Source: Steroidobacteraceae bacterium (GTDB taxonomy: Bacteria > Pseudomonadota > Gammaproteobacteria > Steroidobacterales > Steroidobacteraceae). Taken from it: 48,179 nt of DNA. Location: the NCBI GenBank assembly GCA_017853175.1, contig JAFMKA010000008.1, positions 1 to 48,179 on the forward strand, read 5' to 3'. Below, in pieces: positions 1-10,525 of the stretch (its first letter is position 1; the number at the start of each line of letters is the position of its first letter). A program made the position numbers and the translations under genes. Below the pieces are notes generated by a model, which was given only the letters and a program-made list of their open reading frames with translations, did no database searches and was not told where the DNA came from.

Positions 1-78
1 GGTCCGGACGATCTCGCCGTGTGGTTCATGCAGACCCTCACGCGGCTCGAAACGATCACCTGGAAAGCCGGCACCGAC

Positions 79-2655
79 ATGGGCGATGGCGTCACGCGCT
101 ACACCAACGGCACCAATAGCGGACCCATCTTCGTCTACGTCAAAGACGGCAAGATCATTCGCACGACGCCGATCGACTTCGATGAAAGCGACGCGGCATC
201 GTGGTCGATCACGGCGCGCGGGAAGACCTTCACCCCGAGCCGCCGAACCACCGTCGCGACACACGGCTTGTGCCTCAAGTCGATGGTGTACTCGAAGAAT
301 CGAATTTTGTATCCGATGAAGCGTGTCGACTTCGACCCGGATGGCGAGCGCAACATACAAAATCGCGGCAAGTCTAAATTCGTACGCATCAGCTGGGACG
401 AAGCGCTCGAGATCGTCAGCAAAGAAATCAAGCGGGCCAAGGCGGTCGGTCCCGGCGCCATCTGTGTCGCCAACGGCTCCCATCACCAGTGGGGGAACCT
501 CGGTCACTATTTGAGCGCGTTCAACCGCTTCTGGAACCTCATCGGCGTCACCAAACTCGTACACACCCCCGACAGCTGGGAAGGCTGGTTCTGGGGCGCG
601 ATGCACCACTGGGGTAACAGCCTGCGTCTCGGCTGCCCGGAGTTCTACGGCACGGTCGAGGATTGCCTCAAAGAAGCCGAACTGATCGTCTTCTGGTCGA
701 GCGACCCCGACGCCACCTATGGCTTCGATGGCACGGAGCGTCGCGAATGGGCGAAAGAACTCGGCATCAAGATGGTGCACATCGATCCGTACCTCAATCA
801 CACCGCGGCGCACCTCGGTGGCAAGTGGATCTCCCCCAAGCCCGGCACTGATGCAGCGATGGCCCAGGCGCTCTGCCACGTCTGGATCACCGAAAATCTT
901 TACGACAAAAAATTCGTCGCCGAACGCACGACGGGCTTTGACGAATGGAAGGCCTATATTCTCGGCGAGAGCGACGGCATCCCGAAAACGCCGGAGTGGC
1001 AAGAAAAAGAAACCGGCGTGCCGGCGCGCGACGTTCGCGCGCTCGCTCGCGAGTGGGGCTCAAAGAAAACCTACCTCGGCGCGGGTGGTTGGGGTGTCGG
1101 CCTCGGCGGCGCAGGTCGCAGCCCGATGGGTGCGCAATGGGCGCGCATGATGACCATCCTCGGTGCGATGCAGGGTTATGGCCGCCCGGGCTCGAACTTC
1201 GGCAATCTGCAGTTCGGCGCACCGCTCGATTTCAACTTCTATTTCCCGGGCTACGGTGAAGGCAGCTTCTCGGGCGAGCTCATGGCGAGCGCGAATTCCG
1301 CGAACAACTATCAGCGCATGCCACACATCGTGACCATGAGCTCGGTGCGTCAGGCGATTCCACGCATGTGGTTCCCGGAAGCCATCACCCAAGGCAAGGC
1401 GATGGGCTATCTCACCGACGTCTCGTCGATCCAGGGACAGTTCTTCCCCTTCGGCTACCCCTCGCCCGGCCATGTCCGCGTCGAGATGCTCTACAAGTAC
1501 GGCAGCTCTTCACTCGGCACTCAGGTGGGCTCGAACCGCTGGATCAAAGCGTATCAACACGAGAGTCTGAAGTTCGTGGTGAACCAATCGGTGTGGTGGG
1601 AAGGCGAAACGCCCTTCGCCGATGTCATCTTGCCGGCCTGCACGGTCTTCGAGCGCTGGGACATCAGCGAGTGGTACAACGTGGGCGCAGGCTACGTGCA
1701 CCACATGTACTCGATGAACAACCATCGCGTCATCACCATGCAGCACAAGGCGATCGAGCCGCTCGGCGAGTCGAAGTCCGACTACGACATCTTCCTCGCC
1801 ATCTCGGAGAAGCTCGACATGGGCTCGGTGTACTCCGAGGGTGGCACCTCCGAATACGACTGGTGCAAGCGCGTCTTCGACTCTTCAGATCTCGCCAAAA
1901 AAATCTCGTGGCGCGAGTTTTTGAAGAAGGGGTACTACGTCGTGCCGCCCGACCCCGAATCGGCCCGCGCACCCACGGCCAATCGCTGGTTCTACGAGGG
2001 TCGTAAGAAAGACACCCCGGAGCCCTACCCGCTGCCCTCCGAATACGTCGGCGGTCTCGGCAAGGGTCTGCAAACGCCCTCGGGCAAGTTCGAGTTCATT
2101 GCCACGACGCTCAAGCGCATCGATGACCCCGATCGTCCGCCGCTCAACCAATACATGCCGGTGTACGAAGACGGTAAACGCGAACCGGAACTCGCCGAGT
2201 TTCCGCTGCAATTGCTCTCGCCGCACTCACGTTATCCGTTCCATCTGATGGGCGATGACGAAGGCTCGAGCGTGCGCGACATCCGCGAGCATCGCGTGTT
2301 CAAAGACGGGCACCACTATCTCGTCGCGCGCATTAGCCGCAAAGACGCCGAGTCCCGCGGCATTCGCGATGATGATCTCATTCGCCTTTGGAATAACCGC
2401 GGCTCCGTCGTGTGTGCCGCGCAGATCACTGATCGTCTGCGACCGGGAGTGGTGTCGGCCTCGACGGCCTCGGCCGAGTACCGGCCGGTCGGTGAGCCTG
2501 GAAAATCCACCGATCTCGGTGGCTGCATCAACATGCTGAACCCGAGTAAGGCGATTGCGCGCAAGACTCACGGGATTCGCCCCAACACCACGCTGATCCA
2601 GATCGAAAAATGGACCGGCATCGACACTTGGCAACCGCGCGCGGAGACGGCGTGA
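79..2655 (+). CDS. Large (Mo) subunit of a transhydroxylase-like molybdopterin oxidoreductase
   Basis: This 858-residue protein of the DMSO-reductase superfamily resembles the alpha subunit of Pelobacter pyrogallol-phloroglucinol transhydroxylase (about 875 aa) along its whole length. Like that protein it has no N-terminal Cys motif for an FeS cluster. Seen: SHHQWG (His135/136), PDSWEGW (Asp165, Ser166) and YFPGYGEG (Tyr392). By recalled alignment these match transhydroxylase His144, Asp174, the Mo ligand Ser175 and Tyr404. The frame stays open to the left edge and a GTG at 19 is possible. I chose the ATG at 79 because the family starts there. The stop overlaps the next gene (TGATG), so the two subunits are coupled. 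It probably acts on a polyhydroxylated aromatic. Resorcinol hydroxylase or catechol dehydroxylase activity are alternatives. Family is sure, substrate is not. Confidence 0.88.
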   Translation: MGDGVTRYTNGTNSGPIFVYVKDGKIIRTTPIDFDESDAASWSITARGKTFTPSRRTTVATHGLCLKSMVYSKNRILYPMKRVDFDPDGERNIQNRGKSKFVRISWDEALEIVSKEIKRAKAVGPGAICVANGSHHQWGNLGHYLSAFNRFWNLIGVTKLVHTPDSWEGWFWGAMHHWGNSLRLGCPEFYGTVEDCLKEAELIVFWSSDPDATYGFDGTERREWAKELGIKMVHIDPYLNHTAAHLGGKWISPKPGTDAAMAQALCHVWITENLYDKKFVAERTTGFDEWKAYILGESDGIPKTPEWQEKETGVPARDVRALAREWGSKKTYLGAGGWGVGLGGAGRSPMGAQWARMMTILGAMQGYGRPGSNFGNLQFGAPLDFNFYFPGYGEGSFSGELMASANSANNYQRMPHIVTMSSVRQAIPRMWFPEAITQGKAMGYLTDVSSIQGQFFPFGYPSPGHVRVEMLYKYGSSSLGTQVGSNRWIKAYQHESLKFVVNQSVWWEGETPFADVILPACTVFERWDISEWYNVGAGYVHHMYSMNNHRVITMQHKAIEPLGESKSDYDIFLAISEKLDMGSVYSEGGTSEYDWCKRVFDSSDLAKKISWREFLKKGYYVVPPDPESARAPTANRWFYEGRKKDTPEPYPLPSEYVGGLGKGLQTPSGKFEFIATTLKRIDDPDRPPLNQYMPVYEDGKREPELAEFPLQLLSPHSRYPFHLMGDDEGSSVRDIREHRVFKDGHHYLVARISRKDAESRGIRDDDLIRLWNNRGSVVCAAQITDRLRPGVVSASTASAEYRPVGEPGKSTDLGGCINMLNPSKAIARKTHGIRPNTTLIQIEKWTGIDTWQPRAETA

Positions 2656-3500
2656 TGGCAAAGAAATGGAATCTGATCGTCGACATCGAGCGCTGCGACA
2701 ACTGCCGCAGCTGCTACATCGCGGTCAAAGACGAACACGCCGGCAATGACTTCCCGGGCTATGCCGCAGCGCAACCGGCGCAGGGCCATCATTGGCTCGA
2801 TATCCGTCGCAAGGAGCGCGGCGCTTATCCGCTCGTCGAGGCGAACTTCCAGCCGGTGATGTGCAAGCACTGCGACGACGCGCCCTGCATGAAGGCCGCG
2901 CGCGACGGCGCCGTGCAAAAACGGGTCGACGGCATCGTGATCATCGACCCCGTCAAAGCCAAGGGTCAGAAGCAGATCGTCGACGCCTGCCCCTATGGGG
3001 CGGTGTGGTGGAACGAAGAGACGCAGATACCGCAGCACTGGATCTTCGACGCGCACCTGCTCGATAGCGGCTGGGACAAAGTGCGGGCCGAGCAGGCCTG
3101 CCCCACGAACGTCTTCCGGACCATCCGACTTGAAGACGCCGAGATGCAGCGCCTTGCGGAGCAGGAAGGTCTTGAGGTCGAGCGCCCGGAACTCGGCACT
3201 CGGCCCCGGGTGTACTACAAAAACCTCCATCTGATGACGCAGTGCTTTGTCGGGGGTACGGTGGTCCACCGCGTTGGCGGAGTCGAGGAATGCGCGCCGG
3301 GGGCGCACGTCGTGCTACGTCAGGCCGGACGCGAAGTCGCTCGGGCGACCACCGACACCTTCGGCGAGTTCAAGATCGATCGTCTGCCCCCCGGCAGCGG
3401 CCGATACGAGCTCGAGGCCTCCGGGCCGTCCGGACGGGCGACCACGGCCTTCGATCTGGGCACCGAAAGCCCCTATCTCGGGGTGCTGACCCTCTCCTAA
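2655..3500 (+). CDS. Iron-sulfur subunit of the transhydroxylase-like enzyme, with C-terminal Ig-like domain
   Basis: The 281-residue partner of the Mo subunit matches the transhydroxylase beta subunit (274 aa) in length and domain order. A ferredoxin-type electron-transfer part (about 1-190) is followed by a carboxypeptidase-regulatory/Cna-B-like beta domain (about 200-281, with GxxVVL and GEFKIDxLPPG). Cys14, 17, 20 (motif I), Cys70, 73, 78 (motif II), Cys112 (CPYG) and Cys149 (CPT) can ligate two [4Fe-4S] clusters. The positions that would hold a third are Val24, Trp129, Asp132 and Ala145. I see no Tat or Sec signal, so a cytoplasmic complex is likely, as for transhydroxylase. The start ATG overlaps the upstream stop by one base; the longer frame from 2610 lies inside the Mo subunit gene. 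Confidence 0.87.
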   Translation: MAKKWNLIVDIERCDNCRSCYIAVKDEHAGNDFPGYAAAQPAQGHHWLDIRRKERGAYPLVEANFQPVMCKHCDDAPCMKAARDGAVQKRVDGIVIIDPVKAKGQKQIVDACPYGAVWWNEETQIPQHWIFDAHLLDSGWDKVRAEQACPTNVFRTIRLEDAEMQRLAEQEGLEVERPELGTRPRVYYKNLHLMTQCFVGGTVVHRVGGVEECAPGAHVVLRQAGREVARATTDTFGEFKIDRLPPGSGRYELEASGPSGRATTAFDLGTESPYLGVLTLS

Positions 3501-3658: not shown

Positions 3659-4546
3659 ATGAAACGCATTCTGCTGTTCCTCGCCACCAACCTTGCCGTC
3701 GTGCTCGTGCTGTCGGTCGTGATGCAGCTGCTCGGCATCGACCAGTACATCGCCGCCCAGGGCGGCAGCGCCTACGGGCTGCTCGTATTCGCGGCGGTGT
3801 TCGGCTTCGGCGGCGCGCTGATCTCGCTCGCCATGTCGAAGTGGAGCGCCAAGCGCATGATGGGTGTCCGCCTCATCGACCAGCCGCGCGACAACATGGA
3901 GCGTTGGCTCGTCGATACGGTGCGTCGTCAGGCCGAAGAAGCCGGCATCGGCATGCCTGAGGTCGGCATCTTCGAGTCACCCGAACCGAACGCGTTCGCC
4001 ACGGGCGCCAACAAGAACAAGGCGCTCGTCGCGGTCAGCACGGGTTTGATTCAGCGCATGCGCAAAGAGGAAGTCGAAGCGGTGCTGGGTCACGAGGTCG
4101 GCCACGTCGCCAATGGAGATATGGTCACGCTCACGCTCATTCAGGGCGTGGTGAACACCTTCGTGATCTTCTTGGCGCGCATCATCGGCAACTTCATCGA
4201 CAAGGCCATCTTCAAGAACGAAAACGGCGGCGGTATCGGTTACTTCGTCGTCGTGATCGTCTGCGAGATGCTGCTCGGCATCCTCGCAAGCGTCATCGTC
4301 ATGTGGTTCTCGCGTAAGCGCGAGTTCCGTGCCGATGCGGCCGGTGCCCTGCTCGCGAGCCCACAGGCCATGGTCGGTGCGCTCGAAGCCTTGAAGCGCG
4401 CACAACATCCTGAGGGTCTACCTCAGCAAATGGCGGCTTTCGGCATCAACTCAGGCGTTCCGAGCGGCTTCAAGCGGCTCTTCATGAGCCATCCGCCGCT
4501 CGATGAGCGCATCGATGCGCTCAAGCGCCAGCACGGCTTGATCTGA
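3659..4546 (+). CDS. htpX: Membrane zinc metalloprotease HtpX
   Basis: HtpX is an M48-family protease of the inner membrane that degrades damaged or misassembled membrane proteins alongside FtsH. The 295 residues match the usual length. Two N-terminal membrane segments (about 4-22 and 36-55) precede the zinc site HEVGH ([13 protein letters not shown], about residues 142-155). Two more membrane segments follow, then REFRAD, which should supply the third zinc ligand. An AGGAG at 3642-3646 lies upstream of the ATG. The gene stands alone between a sigma-32-like promoter and a strong hairpin, so it is probably a single-gene heat-shock unit. Confidence 0.96.
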
Positions 4547-4552
4547 CCTTTG

Positions 4553-4587
4553 CCTCGCGGCGTCGCCGATCCGGCGGCGCCGCGAGG
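4553..4587 (+). terminator. Strong GC hairpin after htpX
   Basis: The arms 4553-4568 and 4572-4587 form a 16-bp stem with one mismatch and a 3-base loop, starting 6 bases after the htpX stop. No T tract follows, so it is either a factor-assisted terminator or an RNA-stabilising 3' hairpin. The remainder to 4688 shows no clear promoter. Confidence 0.5.
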
Positions 4588-4688
4588 TGGTCACCAAAGC
4601 CCTCGTGCCTAGAAGCAGATCGCTCGGGCACGTTTACTTCGGGGGGTGGTTGGGCTTTGGTATCTTTGACGGCAGGGATTTTTGATAC

Positions 4689-5657
4689 ATGACTGAGCAG
4701 AGCCTCCCCCTTTGGCGTCGATGGCTAAACGCCTTCATTAATTGGTTCGATACGGGTCCGCTCGTCACTGCACCCGAGGGAACCTCGCTGCCCGACATTC
4801 CCGACCGCGTCGAATGGGCGCGCATCATCCCCTTTATCGCAGTTCACGCCACCTGTCTCAGCGTCATCTGGGTGGGCTGGAGCCCGATCGCTGTAATCGT
4901 TGCGGTCGTGGCCTATTTCGTCCGAATGTTTGCGATCACGGGCTTCTATCACCGCTATTTTTCGCATCGTTCGTTCAAGACATCACGTGTGGGTCAATTC
5001 GTGTTCGGTGTGCTCGGCGCTTCCGCCGTGCAGCGCGGGCCGCTTTGGTGGGCCGCCCATCACCGCCATCATCACGCCTACTCCGACAAGCCCGAGGATT
5101 CGCACTCTCCCGTGCAGCACGGTTTCGTGCGTTCTCACATGGGTTGGTTCCTCACCACGAGAGGGTTCCGTCCCGATCTGCGACGCGTACGCGATCTCAT
5201 GCAGTTTCCTGAGCTGCGCTGGCTCGATCGCTTCGACATCCTGATCCCGGTCGCACTGGCGGTCTTCATGTTCGGACTCGGCATCGTGCTCGAGCGGCTC
5301 GCCCCCGAACTCGGAACGAGCGGTGGCCAGATGCTCGTGTGGGGGTTCTTCATTTCGACGGTCGCCTGCTACCACGGCACCTACACCATCAACTCGCTCT
5401 CGCACGTCTTCGGGCGCCAGCGCTATCGCACCGGTGATGCGAGCCGTAACAACTGGCTACTCGCTCTGATCACGCTCGGCGAAGGCTGGCATAACAATCA
5501 CCATCATTTTCCGAGCTCTACGCGACAAGGGTTCTATTGGTGGGAAATCGACATCACCTACTACTTGCTCAAAGTCATGTCCTGGCTAGGCATCATCTGG
5601 GACCTCAAGCCCGTACCGGTCGCGATTCGCGATCACTCTCCCCGCCGCATCCGCTGA
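4689..5657 (+). CDS. Membrane fatty acid (acyl-CoA type) desaturase
   Basis: This 322-residue integral membrane di-iron desaturase introduces a cis double bond into a fatty acyl chain using O2 and an electron donor. All three histidine boxes of the delta-9 stearoyl-CoA desaturase family are visible: HRYFSH (HxxxxH), HHRHHH (HxxHH) and HNNHHH (HNNHH). Hydrophobic stretches lie between and before them. It is the first gene of a six-gene run; the next starts 10 bases after its stop. Leading an operon with a Cfa-type methyltransferase suggests it supplies the unsaturated chain that is then methylated or further modified. Regioselectivity cannot be read from sequence. Confidence 0.93.
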   Translation: MTEQSLPLWRRWLNAFINWFDTGPLVTAPEGTSLPDIPDRVEWARIIPFIAVHATCLSVIWVGWSPIAVIVAVVAYFVRMFAITGFYHRYFSHRSFKTSRVGQFVFGVLGASAVQRGPLWWAAHHRHHHAYSDKPEDSHSPVQHGFVRSHMGWFLTTRGFRPDLRRVRDLMQFPELRWLDRFDILIPVALAVFMFGLGIVLERLAPELGTSGGQMLVWGFFISTVACYHGTYTINSLSHVFGRQRYRTGDASRNNWLLALITLGEGWHNNHHHFPSSTRQGFYWWEIDITYYLLKVMSWLGIIWDLKPVPVAIRDHSPRRIR

Positions 5658-5667
5658 CCTGCGCCGC

Positions 5668-7017
5668 GTGAGCCGTATCGCCATCATCGGCACGGGTATC
5701 GCCGGCCTCACTGCGGCTTGGCAGCTCCATCGAAATCACGAGCTCGTGCTGTTCGAGTCCAACGACTACGTGGGCGGCCATACGGCCACCAAAGATATCG
5801 AGCTCGGCGGCAAGCACTACGCGATCGACACCGGCTTCATCGTCTTCAACGATTGGACCTATCCCAACTTCATCGCTTTGCTCGAGCAAGTCGGCGCGAG
5901 CTGGCAATGGTCGGACATGAGTTTTTCTTTGCGCTGCGAGCGCACCGGGCTCGAGTACAACGGCACGTCGATCAACTCGCTCTTTGCGCAACGCCGAAAC
6001 ATCGTCAATCCGACCTTCCTACGCATGATCGTCGACATCCTGCGGTTCAACGGTCAGGCCAAATCCTTACTCGCGCCCCGCCACACGCCCGGCCACGCGG
6101 ATCCAGAAGGCACGCTCACCTTGGGCGAGTTCCTCGAGCGCGGGGCTTACTCGAGAGCCTTCATCGAGCGCTACATCATCCCGATGGGACGTGCGATCTG
6201 GTCGGCGACGGGCCGCGGCATGCTCGATTTTCCAGCTCGATTCTTCGTCGATTTCTTTGATCGGCACGGCTTTCTAAACGTGAACGATCGACCCACCTGG
6301 CGTACGGTCAGCGGGGGTTCGCGCGAGTACATCCGGAAAATGCTGCCACAGCTGCGAGCCGACATCAGGCTCTCCTCGCCCGTTCGACGCGTACGACGAG
6401 ACGTCGACGGCGTAACCGTCACCAGCGAGTCACACGCGCACGGCCTGCAGCCGGAGCGCTTCGACCACGTATTCTTCGCCTGCCACAGCGACCAGGCTCT
6501 TGCGATGCTCGAGGATCCGAGCCCAGCCGAGGAGCGTGTACTCGGCGCGTTTCCCTATCAGGGTAACGACGCCGTGTTACATACCGATCGACGTATGCTG
6601 CCGCGCTCGCCGCTCGCTCGAGCGGCCTGGAACTACCACCTACTCGAGCCCGATAGCGGTCAAGTCGCACTCACCTACGACATGAACATTCTGCAGTCGA
6701 TCGAGGCGGAAGAGATTTTCATGGTGACGCTCAATCGCGAGGCCCATATCGACCCGTCTAAGATTTTAGGTCGTTTCACCTATCATCACCCGGTCTACAC
6801 GCCTCAGGCCGTCGCCGCACAAGCACAGCGACACCTCGTGAGCGGCGTCAATCGCACCCACTACTGCGGCGCGTATTGGCGCTACGGCTTTCACGAGGAC
6901 GGCGTGGTGAGCGGTCTCTGGGCGGTTGAAGACTTCGCACGAGTCACGAGCACGGCACCGCCGCCCCCGCCCATCACCGAGCCCGTGCGTCGCAGCCTGC
7001 GAGACGCTTCGCGATGA
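5668..7017 (+). CDS. FAD-dependent amine-oxidase/desaturase-like oxidoreductase of a Cfa cluster
   Basis: The 449-residue flavoprotein has an N-terminal Rossmann FAD motif (IAIIGTGIAGLTAAWQL) and ESNDYVGGHT. This is the architecture of the amine oxidase/phytoene desaturase superfamily, and the C-terminal GAYWRYGFHEDGVVSG motif is typical of the subgroup found beside DUF1365 and Cfa genes. It starts with GTG, and its stop overlaps the next ATG (ATGA). Homologues co-occur with Cfa-type enzymes in many proteobacteria, sometimes in singlet-oxygen (RpoE/ChrR) regulons. The exact reaction is not established to my knowledge; oxidation of a modified phospholipid acyl chain is inferred. No ChrR or RpoE gene is in this window. 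Confidence 0.85.
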   Translation: MSRIAIIGTGIAGLTAAWQLHRNHELVLFESNDYVGGHTATKDIELGGKHYAIDTGFIVFNDWTYPNFIALLEQVGASWQWSDMSFSLRCERTGLEYNGTSINSLFAQRRNIVNPTFLRMIVDILRFNGQAKSLLAPRHTPGHADPEGTLTLGEFLERGAYSRAFIERYIIPMGRAIWSATGRGMLDFPARFFVDFFDRHGFLNVNDRPTWRTVSGGSREYIRKMLPQLRADIRLSSPVRRVRRDVDGVTVTSESHAHGLQPERFDHVFFACHSDQALAMLEDPSPAEERVLGAFPYQGNDAVLHTDRRMLPRSPLARAAWNYHLLEPDSGQVALTYDMNILQSIEAEEIFMVTLNREAHIDPSKILGRFTYHHPVYTPQAVAAQAQRHLVSGVNRTHYCGAYWRYGFHEDGVVSGLWAVEDFARVTSTAPPPPPITEPVRRSLRDASR

Positions 7018-7778
7018 CCGCGAGCGCGCTGTACGTCGGACACATTCGTCATCGCCGCTTCGGTCCGCGGCGTAATGATTTTCGATATCGGATCTATCTC
7101 ACCTACCTCGATCTCTCGGAGCTCGAGACTCTTTTCGCGGGCCGATGGTTCTGGTCTGCGCACCGACCGGCGCTCGCGAGATTTCGTCGTGCCGATTTTT
7201 TAGGCGACCCGGCGATCCCCCTCGATACCGCCGTACGCAATCGAGTCGAAGCCGAGACGGGTCGTCGGCCGCAAGGCCCGATCCGGCTGCTCACCCACAT
7301 CCGGCAGTTCGGCTACAACTTCAACCCGGTGAGTTTTTATTACGTCTTTGACTCGAGCGGTACCCGCCTCGAAACGGTGATCGCCGAGATCACCAACACG
7401 CCCTGGGACGAGCGTCATGCCTACGTGCTCCCCGTCGAGCAGGCTGAACGGGTCGGGGCCCAGGTGCTGCGCTGGCAGTTCGACAAGCAGTTCCACGTCT
7501 CGCCATTCCTGCCCATGGATATGCGGTATGACTGGCGCTTTAGCGAGCCCGGCGACACACTGTCGGTCCATATGGAAAATTGGAAGGACGGCACGTCCCA
7601 CTTTAATGCGACCCTGACGCTGCGACGCGAGCCGATCACCGGCCGCTCGCTTGCGCGGGCGCTCGCGGCGTTTCCGCTCATCACGTTCAAAGTGAGCGCG
7701 CTCATTTATTGGCAGGCACTCGTGTTACTGATCAAGCGCACGCCGTTCTTCACTCATCCGGACAAAATCACGAGCTGA
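7014..7778 (+). CDS. DUF1365 family protein
   Basis: The 254-residue protein begins with SALYVGHIRHRRFGPRRNDFRYRIY-type residues and contains the FGYNFNPVSFYY motif diagnostic of DUF1365. It has no signal peptide and one weak hydrophobic stretch near the C terminus (about 220-240). It is translationally coupled to the flavoprotein (4-base overlap) and sits 9 bases before the Cfa-type gene, the usual place for this family. Its biochemical role is unknown. The constant association implies a function in acyl-chain modification with its two neighbours. Confidence 0.88.
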   Translation: MTASALYVGHIRHRRFGPRRNDFRYRIYLTYLDLSELETLFAGRWFWSAHRPALARFRRADFLGDPAIPLDTAVRNRVEAETGRRPQGPIRLLTHIRQFGYNFNPVSFYYVFDSSGTRLETVIAEITNTPWDERHAYVLPVEQAERVGAQVLRWQFDKQFHVSPFLPMDMRYDWRFSEPGDTLSVHMENWKDGTSHFNATLTLRREPITGRSLARALAAFPLITFKVSALIYWQALVLLIKRTPFFTHPDKITS

Positions 7779-7787
7779 GTCGCACGC

Positions 7788-9083
7788 ATGAACGAGCGGA
7801 CCCAGAAACCCAGCATCATTCCGAGTCTTCCCAACCTCGGCATGGCAGATCGCCCGTCGGCACTTGCTGCACTCGGACGCCGACTGCTGCTTGGCCAATT
7901 CGCCGCCCTTCGCGACGGCGAGCTCAACATCATCGAGTGGGACGGATCACACCATCGATTCGGTTCGCGTACGCCGCGACTCGATATCGCGGTGACACTG
8001 CATATCGACCACCCCCAGCTTTACGCCGATGCCGCCTTCGGTGGCACCGTCGGTGCGGGAGAGGCCTATATCAGAGGCCTCTGGCGCTGCGACGACCTCA
8101 CGGGACTCGTTCGAATCTTCGTCGCGAATCGTGAGGTCATGAACGGCATGGACAGCCGCTGGGCACTCATCAGCCGACCGGTGCTCAAGGTTTTTCACTT
8201 TCTCAATCGCAACAGCAAAGCCGGTAGCGCCCGTAACATCTCGGCACACTACGATCTCGGCAACGCACTGTATGAACTCATGCTCGATCCGACGATGGCG
8301 TATTCCTGCGGCATCTTCGAGCACGAGCAGACGACGCTCGAACAAGCCTCGATCGCCAAATTCGAAGCCATTTGTCGCAAGCTGCAGCTCAAGCCCGACG
8401 ATCGTGTGGTCGAAATCGGCACGGGCTGGGGCGGCCTCGCGATCCATGCGGCTGCGAAATACGGCTGCCACGTCACGACCACCACCATCTCTCGCGAGCA
8501 GCACGATTACGCCAAAGAAAAAATCGCGCGTGCCGGACTCCAAGATCGCATCACGCTCCTGCTCGAAGACTATCGTGATCTCAAAGGTCGATACGACAAG
8601 GCCATTTCCATCGAGATGATCGAAGCCGTCGGCGCGAACTACCTCGATACTTATCTCGCCAAATGCTCATCGCTCCTCGCCCCGCACGGCGCGATGCTGC
8701 TGCAGGCGATCACGATCCAGGATCAGTTTTACGAGCAGGCGAGAAAGTCCGTCGATTACATTCAGCGCTTCATTTTTCCCGGTAGTTTCATTCCGAGTGT
8801 CGAGGCCATCAGTCGCTCACTAACGCGGGCGACCGATCTCAAGATCTTCAACCTCGAAGATATCGGACCGCACTACGCGCGCACCCTGCGCGAGTGGCGC
8901 CGCAATTTCTTCGACCACCTGCCGAAAGTGCGTGCACTCGGCTATCCCGACTCCTTCGTGAGACTCTGGGAGTTCTACCTCTGTTACTGCGAGGGTGGCT
9001 ACGCAGAGCGGCAATTGGGCGACGTACAGTTGTTACTGACCAAGCCCGGCTGTCGCCTACCACCGGTGGCGTACGCGCGATGA
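7788..9083 (+). CDS. Cfa-type SAM-dependent fatty acyl methyltransferase (cyclopropane synthase family)
   Basis: The 431-residue enzyme transfers a methyl(ene) group from SAM to the double bond of a phospholipid acyl chain. Seen: an N-terminal Cfa domain, an ARNISAHYDLGN substrate motif, the SAM motif VVEIGTGWGGLA, EMIEAVG, FIFPGSFIPS and DIGPHYARTL. It looks more like the plant-type/long bacterial Cfa branch than E. coli Cfa. Two positions that bind bicarbonate in E. coli Cfa (recalled as Cys139 and His266) are Thr212 and Gln306 here. The Gln also occurs in plant cyclopropane synthases as I recall them. The product could be a cyclopropane, a methyl-branched chain or a furan-acid precursor. 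Confidence 0.9.
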   Translation: MNERTQKPSIIPSLPNLGMADRPSALAALGRRLLLGQFAALRDGELNIIEWDGSHHRFGSRTPRLDIAVTLHIDHPQLYADAAFGGTVGAGEAYIRGLWRCDDLTGLVRIFVANREVMNGMDSRWALISRPVLKVFHFLNRNSKAGSARNISAHYDLGNALYELMLDPTMAYSCGIFEHEQTTLEQASIAKFEAICRKLQLKPDDRVVEIGTGWGGLAIHAAAKYGCHVTTTTISREQHDYAKEKIARAGLQDRITLLLEDYRDLKGRYDKAISIEMIEAVGANYLDTYLAKCSSLLAPHGAMLLQAITIQDQFYEQARKSVDYIQRFIFPGSFIPSVEAISRSLTRATDLKIFNLEDIGPHYARTLREWRRNFFDHLPKVRALGYPDSFVRLWEFYLCYCEGGYAERQLGDVQLLLTKPGCRLPPVAYAR

Positions 9084-10525
9084 TGCCCGGCGGAGCAGGC
9101 TCGCCGCTGCAACAACTCATCGCGCAGTTCGGCAGCTCGATCATCGTCACCGACCCGGCCCAACTCGCCGCCGTCAACGTCGATCACCGAAAACTCTACG
9201 AGGGTAAGGCGCTCGCCCTCGCCTTACCCCGGAGCACCGCCGAAGTCTCGAAGCTGCTCGCCTTCTGTAATGCGCTGCGTATCGGTGTCGTCCCGCAGGG
9301 TGGAAATACCAGCTATTGCGGCGGTACGGCGCCCGATGCCTCGGGCACCCAACTCGTACTCTCTCTGCGTCGGATGAACGCCATCCGCGAAATGAACCCG
9401 GTCAATGATTCGATGATCGTGGAGGCCGGCTGCATTCTGGCCGACGTACAACGAGCGGCGACGGACGCCGGACGGTTTTTTCCTCTCAGTCTCGGCGCTG
9501 AGGGCAGTTGCCAGATCGGGGGCAATCTCTCCACCAATGCCGGAGGTGTGAACGTCGTGCGTTACGGCATGGCGCGAGATCTCGTCCTCGGACTCGAAGT
9601 CGTGCTGGCCGATGGACGCGTGCTCTCGACGCTCAAGACTCTGCGTAAGGACAACACGGGCTACGACCTGCGTCACCTTTTCATCGGTGCCGAAGGTACG
9701 CTCGGAGTGATCACCGCCGCGAGTCTAAAGCTCTTTCCCGCACCTCGCAGCGTAGCTACGGCATTCGTGGCGGTGCAGACCCCAGCGGCGGCCGTATCGC
9801 TGCTCGCCGAGCTTCGTAAGTCTTGCGGCGATCTCGTCTCCTCCTTCGAACTCATTCCGAATATCGCCATTGATCTCGTCGCCAAACACCTGCCTGGCAC
9901 TCGATCGCCTCTCGAAGCGGGATCGCCCTGGTATGTGCTCTGCGAGATCACGAGCGCGATGTCGAACGAGCCACTCGGCGAACGCCTTGAAACAGCGCTC
10001 GCTGCCGCACTCGAGACGGGTCTCATCACCGATGCGACGCTTGCGCAGAGCGAGCGTGAGCGCCAAGAGTTTTGGTTCCTGCGCGAGCACATCCCCGAGG
10101 CCCAGCGTCGTGACGGATCGAGCCTCAAACATGACATCTCCCTGCCGCTCGATCGCCTCGCAGAGTTCATCGCTTCGAGCAGCGACTGGCTGCACGATCA
10201 GGTTCCCGAAGGATTTCTCGTCTGCTACGGCCACGTCGGCGACGGCAATCTGCATTTCAATATCAATCAATCATCGAACTCGGTAGCAACCGGAGCGTTA
10301 CTCGCCCGCCAAAACGAGATTCGCCGCGCGATCCATGATCGTGTCCACGAAATGGGTGGCAGCTTCAGTGCCGAGCACGGCATCGGCCGTCATAAAGTCG
10401 AGGAACTCGAGCGCTACGCATCACCGCTCGAGCTCGAACTGATGCGGAATATCAAACGGGCCTTTGACCCGAACGGCATCATGAACCCCGGAAAAGTTCT
10501 GCATTCAGGGAGCGCGTCGCGATGA
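9080..10525 (+). CDS. FAD-linked oxidoreductase, D-2-hydroxyglutarate/D-lactate dehydrogenase family
   Basis: The 481-residue flavoenzyme has an FAD_binding_4 domain (PQGGNTSYCGG; GSCQIGGNLSTNAGG; LRKDNTGYDLRHLFIGAEGTLGVIT) followed by an FAD-oxidase C-terminal domain with GHVGDGNLHFN, EHGIGRHK and MNPGKVL. The middle motifs closely match D-2-hydroxyglutarate dehydrogenases, which pass electrons from a D-2-hydroxy acid to a carrier. I start it at the ATG in the ATGATGA overlap with the Cfa-type stop; the longer frame from 8894 lies inside that gene. An FAD_binding_4 protein also partners a Cfa-type enzyme in actinobacterial 10-methylstearate synthesis, so a role in acyl reduction should be weighed against the 2-hydroxy acid role. 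Confidence 0.85.
   Translation: MMPGGAGSPLQQLIAQFGSSIIVTDPAQLAAVNVDHRKLYEGKALALALPRSTAEVSKLLAFCNALRIGVVPQGGNTSYCGGTAPDASGTQLVLSLRRMNAIREMNPVNDSMIVEAGCILADVQRAATDAGRFFPLSLGAEGSCQIGGNLSTNAGGVNVVRYGMARDLVLGLEVVLADGRVLSTLKTLRKDNTGYDLRHLFIGAEGTLGVITAASLKLFPAPRSVATAFVAVQTPAAAVSLLAELRKSCGDLVSSFELIPNIAIDLVAKHLPGTRSPLEAGSPWYVLCEITSAMSNEPLGERLETALAAALETGLITDATLAQSERERQEFWFLREHIPEAQRRDGSSLKHDISLPLDRLAEFIASSSDWLHDQVPEGFLVCYGHVGDGNLHFNINQSSNSVATGALLARQNEIRRAIHDRVHEMGGSFSAEHGIGRHKVEELERYASPLELELMRNIKRAFDPNGIMNPGKVLHSGSASR

Follow-up and report, generated by a model that had tools for sequence, protein, structure and literature searches.

A pyrogallol transhydroxylase-family protein pair with a fused SCP2-fold domain and without the FS2 ligand set in a gammaproteobacterium

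We analysed a stretch of 48,179 nucleotides from a Steroidobacteraceae bacterium (the window), which forms the start of one contig (positions 1-48179) of a genome assembly of 1.92 Mb that is 81% complete. Its first 3,500 positions encode the two subunits of an enzyme of the pyrogallol transhydroxylase family (PF21423), in which the large subunit is fused to an SCP2-fold domain and the small subunit has lost the ligands of one iron-sulphur cluster, FS2. We give an even chance to the reading that this is a serine-ligated enzyme with molybdenum (Mo) bound by bis(pyranopterin guanine dinucleotide) (bisPGD), acting on hydrophobic phenols, with its electron wire cut and its catalysis internally redox-balanced.

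Large-subunit architecture and active site

When GTDB genomes were scanned for patterns with the family alignment, at least 580 loci were confirmed, of which the best 80 were examined. Relatives used for comparison include a same-genus genome (L033) and a metagenome-assembled genome of the Nevskiaceae (L054), the latter for AlphaFold2 (AF2) modelling. The subunits and the sites of the large subunit are the following.

1-2655, plus strand: large (catalytic) subunit, 5'-truncated, consisting of the end of the SCP2-fold domain (about 20 residues), a linker and a transhydroxylase-type Mo-bisPGD core (5'-open reading frame, Pfam, match to TthL, complete relatives)
1-60, plus strand: end of the N-terminal SCP2-fold domain, final helix, corresponding to residues 103-122 of L033 and L054 (alignment, codon comparison with L033, AF2 model and fold searches of the L054 domain)
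481-483, plus strand: H161, equivalent to TthL His144 (alignment; invariant in 75 of 75 SCP2-fused rows)
505-510, plus strand: H169-Y170 in place of TthL Tyr152-Arg153, a probable pocket change (20 of 20 rows of the window's clade)
571-576 (codons at 571 and 574), plus strand: D191-S192, equivalent to TthL Asp174 and Ser175, the serine being the Mo ligand by homology (alignment)
1252-1254, plus strand: Y418, equivalent to TthL Tyr404 (alignment)
2655-3500, plus strand: small (iron-sulphur) subunit with a C-terminal CarboxypepD_reg-type domain (match to TthS, Pfam)

The original prediction had the large-subunit gene start at position 79, which proved incorrect. The frame runs without a stop up to the very edge of the contig (base 1), so that about 102 N-terminal residues of the large subunit are missing. 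The L033 genome carries a 99%-identical complete gene of 986 residues, whose residue 103 corresponds to the first residue of the window frame. Over the 26 residues that precede Met79, the two proteins do not differ, and their codons show two synonymous and no non-synonymous differences; the Met79 position itself is an isoleucine in L033, and upstream of it the L033 protein runs on into a domain of about 120 residues. Because the codons of the window continue the frame of this relative, Met79 is an internal residue, and translation starts beyond the contig edge. The genes are in the order L-S, and the large-subunit stop and small-subunit start overlap as TGATG. The agreement in length, order and domains with the Pelobacter acidigallici transhydroxylase (TthL and TthS) that had been proposed was found for the L-S order and for the TthL/TthS core, but not for the length (about 986 residues for the intact protein and about 985-1010 for complete relatives, versus 875 for TthL), the SCP2-fold domain or the FS2 ligands.

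The window encodes the end of the N-terminal domain only, and the SCP2 fold was assessed on the complete domain of the Nevskiaceae relative. The domain modelled alone by AF2 (alignment of 60 sequences, with this relative as the first row) reached a mean predicted local distance difference test score (pLDDT) of 81, and a pLDDT of about 90 within the full-length AF2 model of the complete relative. Foldseek matched it to the SCP2 domains of alkylsulfatases, Archaeoglobus AF1534, UbiJ and insect and mammalian SCP2, with E-values of 7e-6 to 1e-3 and a probability of 1.00 against solved SCP2 domains. VIA alignment gave Z scores of 12.6 and 12.4 to a human sterol carrier protein (8af3) and to the liganded SCP2-like domain of human MFE-2 (1ikt), respectively. 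The SCP2 nature of the domain was recognised by fold only: the Pfam SCP2 profile PF02036 gave no significant match, with an E-value of 0.22 in one relative (L008) and nothing in the other relatives. This bare detection by the sequence profile may explain why the proteins are labelled just 'molybdopterin-dependent oxidoreductase' in the annotated plasmid records that we inspected. Characterised proteins with an SCP2 fold bind sterols and acyl chains. The fused domain is absent from TthL, and this architecture of the large subunit is secure.

The large-subunit core (79-2655) matched TthL (4v4c_A) with an E-value of 1.1e-274 over 843 residues, and Pfam recognised PF21423 (pyrogallol hydroxytransferase large subunit-like, domain 1), PF00384 and PF01568 in it, while neither subunit reached the curated cut-off of any NCBIfam family. 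In the AF2 model of the complete relative the core superposed on 4v4c_A with a Z score of 46.2 and 1.7 Å over 841 residues. The catalytic residues His144, Asp174, Ser175 and Tyr404 of TthL, which the original prediction had named as conserved, indeed aligned as H161, D191, S192 and Y418. Their loss, one of the observations named there as counting against it, was looked for in the alignment, and the equivalents were retained in 74-75 of the 75 SCP2-fused sequences. The core of the original prediction thus holds, well beyond what chance would give. Since the serine, histidine, aspartate and tyrosine are conserved, transhydroxylase-type Mo chemistry is expected.

Comparison of the window with TthL also showed substitutions at aligned positions 152 (Y to H), 153 (R to Y), 354 (W to L) and 557 (C to V), which we take to be pocket residues. 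The equivalents of these four positions differ consistently across the window's clade (H, Y, mostly L or V, and V, respectively), and such changes would fit a different substrate. Acetylene hydratase was considered as a candidate and rejected: it gave a weak partial sequence match (E-value of 2.2e-15), and in place of its cysteine metal ligand a serine is found in 75 of 75 SCP2-fused rows.

Loss of the FS2 ligands and phylogeny of the subfamily

The small subunit matched TthS with an E-value of 3.4e-72, and Pfam assigned to it a Fer4_11 and a CarboxypepD_reg-type domain. TthS has cysteines at ligand positions 13, 16, 19, 23, 68, 71, 76, 109, 126, 129, 145 and 149. We assigned them to clusters by mapping onto TthS the ligand sets of NarH, which are 16, 19, 22 and 263 for FS1, 26, 244, 247 and 259 for FS2, and 184, 187, 192 and 227 for FS3 (PMC5338063). 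The clusters are paired by domain as FS1:FS2 and FS3:FS4, and FS0 adjoins FS1 (PMC8301774).

2694-2714, plus strand: CDNCRSC, three of the four FS1 ligands, the fourth being C149 at 3099 (homology to NarH, PMC5338063)
2724-2726, plus strand: V24 in place of TthS Cys23, FS2 ligand lost (alignment)
2862-2888, plus strand: CKHCDDAPC, three of the four FS3 ligands, the fourth being C112 at 2988 (homology to NarH, PMC5338063)
3039-3050, plus strand: W129 to D132 in place of TthS Cys126 and Cys129, FS2 ligands lost (alignment)
3087-3089, plus strand: A145 in place of TthS Cys145, FS2 ligand lost (alignment)

Eight of the 12 ligand cysteines are thus left in the window, and the FS2 set has become V/W/D/A. 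By homology, the lost cluster would be the middle one of the electron wire, which would hence be cut. We scored 78 small subunits from the 80 loci: the FS1 and FS3 ligands were kept in nearly all of them, with a serine at one FS1 position in four, while the FS2 ligands were complete in 19. The remaining 59 always have tryptophan and aspartate at the positions of Cys126 and Cys129, and have lost Cys23 and Cys145 more variably. An intermediate state, with tryptophan and aspartate at the former positions and Cys23 still present (L088, L098-L100, L108, L114, L116, L117 and L125), suggests that the ligands may have been lost in a certain order. The invariance of the tryptophan and aspartate argues against neutral decay.

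The 80 loci came from Gamma-, Alpha- and Betaproteobacteria, Acidobacteriota, Actinomycetota, Chloroflexota, Desulfobacterota-type lineages and Bacillota (Moorella, Sporomusa). The alignment or the frame covers the SCP2-fold domain wherever the 5' end is present, and the relatives that have the domain represent at least six phyla. We built a maximum-likelihood tree on the catalytic core only, with the N-domain excluded, from 83 sequences by a quick search without bootstraps. The SCP2-bearing rows formed one clade next to TthL, and the FS2-less rows formed one clade nested within it (Shimodaira-Hasegawa-like approximate likelihood ratio test, SH-aLRT, of 100 for each); each trait changes once on this tree. 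The FS2-intact rows belong to Bacillota, Chloroflexota, Desulfobacterota-type lineages, Actinomycetota and others, mostly lineages of anaerobes, and the FS2-less rows to Pseudomonadota plus a few Acidobacteriota.

The core of the window's large subunit grouped with TthL, apart from paralogues of 47% and 36% identity (SH-aLRT 94). This supports the transhydroxylase-type Mo enzyme of a respiring gammaproteobacterium that the original prediction had proposed. A simple match to the anaerobic enzyme is not supported, given the SCP2-fold domain, the loss of FS2 and the substitutions at the four aligned positions. Stops inside the 47%-identical paralogues were considered and set aside: in G443 (L047), the one checked by coordinates, the alignment merely overruns the C-terminal stop. 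Relatives of the same GTDB family (L044:499-16356 and L046:2033-17656) have a separate cluster encoding two AhtL-like proteins of 869-872 residues, with 36% identity and no SCP2 domain. An Fe-S subunit that is intact, an NrfD-like membrane protein and another Fe-S protein are encoded there too, beside homologues of phloroglucinol-cluster genes. This cluster is possibly a membrane-linked respiratory version.

Hosts and gene neighbourhoods

Several FS2-intact members adjoin genes for an SDR, a PF04199 cyclase, a 3HCDH-type dehydrogenase, a BKACE enzyme and a cupin, the first four of which are presumably the families of the enzymes named PGR, DPGC, HOHD and TAL. These gene clusters resemble the phloroglucinol pathway of Clostridium scatologenes, which consists of PGR, DPGC, HOHD and TAL (PMC10470551). 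A dihydrophloroglucinol-cyclohydrolase-like protein was found in 17 of 18 FS2-intact genomes versus four of 32 FS2-less ones. At E-values of 1e-20 or below, no homologue of this cyclohydrolase was found in the 14 genomes of the window's clade, namely the window's own (81% complete) and 13 relatives that are all more than 90% complete, several of them on a single contig. It is therefore unlikely that the enzyme of the window feeds a phloroglucinol pathway.

The respiratory setting seen by the original prediction was confirmed by a COX1 haem-copper oxidase in the window's genome (E-value of 5e-164) and by a desaturase in the window, in which only two CxxCH motifs occur, in frames of 203 and 132 residues.

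4689-5657: fatty-acid desaturase (Pfam)

To call a transhydroxylase unexpected in such a host was nevertheless too strong, since one whole clade of the family lies in oxidase-bearing Pseudomonadota. The enzyme is common in the window's order, where 64 of the 296 genomes have a match, mostly in open frames of about 985-1010 codons. COX1 was present in all 17 genomes of the window's clade, its own included, and, among 50 genomes, in 31 of 32 FS2-less versus six of 18 FS2-intact ones. Naive Fisher tests that ignore shared ancestry gave p values of 1.7e-6 for the oxidase and 9.7e-9 for the cyclohydrolase counts. However, because the loss of FS2 happened once, its association with the oxidase is one event and permits no statistical test; the phylogenetic control left one independent pair only.

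In FS2-less Paraburkholderia and Burkholderia, the enzyme adjoins a VOC protein whose nearest models are those of HpaD and catechol 2,3-dioxygenase, although it stays under the cut-offs of both. In these two genera, and likewise in FS2-less Rhizobium and Ensifer, nearby genes encode an FAA hydrolase, a long acyl-CoA synthetase and an outer-membrane protein of the OmpW or FadL type. One gammaproteobacterial FS2-less member lies near a LigAB-type dioxygenase. The genes around the enzyme in aerobic relatives suggest oxygen-dependent extradiol cleavage. Several genomes of the window's order encode, next to the enzyme, a tandem VOC protein (about 330 residues) with weak similarity to lactoylglutathione lyase models only (L039:6603-7610, L041:6743-7738, L038:11582-12574). 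It is encoded in 23 of 26 enzyme-bearing genomes and in none of 15 enzyme-less ones, a comparison confounded by kinship. The window holds no homologue of the VOC partner of related families.

In same-genus genomes the enzyme pair is flanked by moaC, mobA-moaD and moaE-thiF, and by moaA where the contig reaches. These Mo-cofactor genes (L033:15474-19580, L034:64-3075, L035:820-4780) lie upstream of the pair, on the side that the original prediction had proposed to inspect; two fusions, mobA-moaD(ThiS) and moaE-ThiF-rhodanese, are among them. DUF1838 proteins recur beside members of the clade (L070:14827-15621, L075:375-1085), a possible functional link to the enzyme for this uncharacterised family. 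Positions 3659-10525 of the window encode an M48 protease, the fatty-acid desaturase, an FAD amine-oxidase-like protein, a DUF1365 protein, a CFA-synthase-like methyltransferase and an FAD-linked oxidase. Four same-genus genomes keep this block beside the enzyme. It has the look of an operon for lipid modification, and its function may have nothing to do with that of the enzyme.

Proposed working, alternatives and known systems

In the reading that we favour, the SCP2 domain would hold a phenolic substrate by its greasy tail and offer the ring to the Mo site, where Ser192-ligated Mo, with H161, D191 and Y418, would move or insert a hydroxyl group by the transhydroxylase mechanism. With FS1 and FS3 present and the bridging FS2 gone, as homology to NarH suggests, electrons could hardly leave via the wire. 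Internal redox balance is expected from the loss of the bridging cluster, and the hydroxyl transfer would take place between phenols or involve a bound co-substrate. The product would bypass the reductive phloroglucinol pathway. A hydrophobic phenol is compatible with the SCP2 domain and with the porin-type neighbours and acyl-CoA synthetases of the relatives.

Several observations weigh against this reading. Our literature search found no measured activity for any member of the subfamily. SCP2-bearing members are also found in phloroglucinol-type clusters of anaerobes, so that the presence of the SCP2 domain does not by itself imply that the substrate differs from pyrogallol. The strict keeping of the FS1 and FS3 ligands is odd if the small subunit carries no electrons. 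The window's own neighbourhood shows no obvious aromatic-degradation genes, the aerobic neighbour genes come from branches of the clade other than the window's, and no VOC partner of the related families was found in the window's genome (81% complete) at E-values of 1e-40 or below. Finally, the association of FS2 loss with the oxidase is a coincidence of traits in a single evolutionary event.

A wider version of the favoured reading, which we put forward tentatively and consider rather doubtful as a whole, is that aerobes use a Mo transhydroxylase to act on phenolic lipids such as alkylresorcinol-like molecules. The SCP2 domain would deliver the lipid, the Mo site would rearrange or add a ring hydroxyl group without oxygen or an external electron acceptor, and oxygen-dependent extradiol enzymes would cleave the product. 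The result would be a hybrid of anaerobic and aerobic aromatic pathways, whose enzyme would have lost FS2 on its move into aerobes.

It is unlikely that the enzyme is a net hydroxylase or dehydroxylase, similar to resorcinol hydroxylase, that exchanges electrons with an external partner along a shorter or otherwise altered path, via FS1 or directly at the large subunit. Such an activity would account for the strictly kept FS1 and FS3 ligands, and a Ser-ligated resorcinol hydroxylase lies in the same branch (PMC10100899), but the bridging cluster is without ligands and no dedicated electron-transfer partner gene recurs beside the enzyme. Somewhat less probable is an ordinary pyrogallol or gallate transhydroxylase acquired horizontally by an aerobe, in which the SCP2 domain would serve assembly or docking and FS2 would have been lost neutrally. 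The conserved active-site residues and the SCP2-bearing relatives of anaerobes, in clusters like the phloroglucinol pathway of PMC10470551, are in line with this. Points against it are the lack of a cyclohydrolase homologue in the window's genome and the 13 relatives of its clade, the substitutions at the equivalents of TthL 152, 153, 354 and 557 throughout that clade, and the invariant tryptophan and aspartate at the lost-ligand positions.

A hydroxylase or hydratase of steroids or terpenoids, with the steroid bound by the SCP2 domain, would suit the known binding of sterols and acyl chains by this fold, but we consider it very improbable. The catalytic residues are those of a phenol transhydroxylase, the Mo steroid hydroxylase S25dA belongs to the Asp-ligated group (PMC10100899), and the aerobic neighbours indicate aromatic ring cleavage. 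Taxon spread, ligand type and neighbours are the reasons for which this reading and the following one are rated low. An oxygen-independent hydroxylase of isoprenoid quinone biosynthesis, for which UbiJ and UbiT, both SCP2 proteins, offer an analogy, since UbiJ-SCP2 structures were among the Foldseek matches and quinone precursors are greasy phenols, is the least probable, because the SCP2-fused family includes Moorella, Sporomusa and Dehalococcoidia, in which types of lineage, to our knowledge, ubiquinone synthesis is not general, because the enzyme is patchy in its order and because its close neighbours are not quinone-synthesis genes.

The SCP2-fused enzymes form a large, mostly unstudied subfamily, which combines a lipid-binding-type module with the hydroxyl-transfer Mo chemistry of very few known enzymes. 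With FS2 cleanly lost in one group and retained in a close one, the subfamily offers a natural experiment to learn if a transhydroxylase needs an electron wire. The distribution suggests that a chemistry regarded as strictly anaerobic may be widespread in respiring soil, rhizosphere and aquatic bacteria, and genetics are feasible in the culturable Rhizobium, Ensifer and Paraburkholderia that carry the enzyme. Searches of full-text literature found no description of the SCP2/Mo-enzyme fusion or of the FS2 loss, which is no proof of novelty.

Comparison with known systems places the enzyme closest to TthLS of P. acidigallici (4v4c), with which it shares the two-subunit core, the fold, the Ser ligand position, the His, Asp and Tyr residues and a colinear large-subunit core, as well as the layout of the small subunit, including an alignable C-terminal domain. 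However, TthL has about 875 residues and no SCP2-fold domain, whereas the window's family is fused (985-1010 residues); TthS has 12 ligand cysteines for three [4Fe-4S] clusters, whereas the window's small subunit lacks the FS2 ligands. Differences are also seen at the probable pocket positions, and the window's genome has no detectable homologue of the cyclohydrolase. The enzyme is not TthLS proper, given these differences in domain content and length, clusters and the link to the phloroglucinol pathway. The FS2-intact SCP2-fused relatives sit with SDR, PF04199 cyclase, 3HCDH-type and BKACE genes as in the anaerobic phloroglucinol clusters of C. scatologenes (PMC10470551), whereas the cyclohydrolase homologue is undetectable in the window's clade. 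Alkylsulfatases SdsA1 and Pisa1 and human MFE-2 carry the same SCP2 fold as a lipid-binding module on a catalytic chain, but the module is joined there to a sulfatase or to an enzyme of beta-oxidation, and in the window's family to a Mo enzyme. Resorcinol hydroxylase RhLS of Azoarcus anaerobius, likened here by its description, belongs to the same Ser-ligated branch of the dimethyl sulphoxide reductase superfamily (PMC10100899). The enzyme of the window belongs to the same superfamily branch as TthLS and probably works like it.

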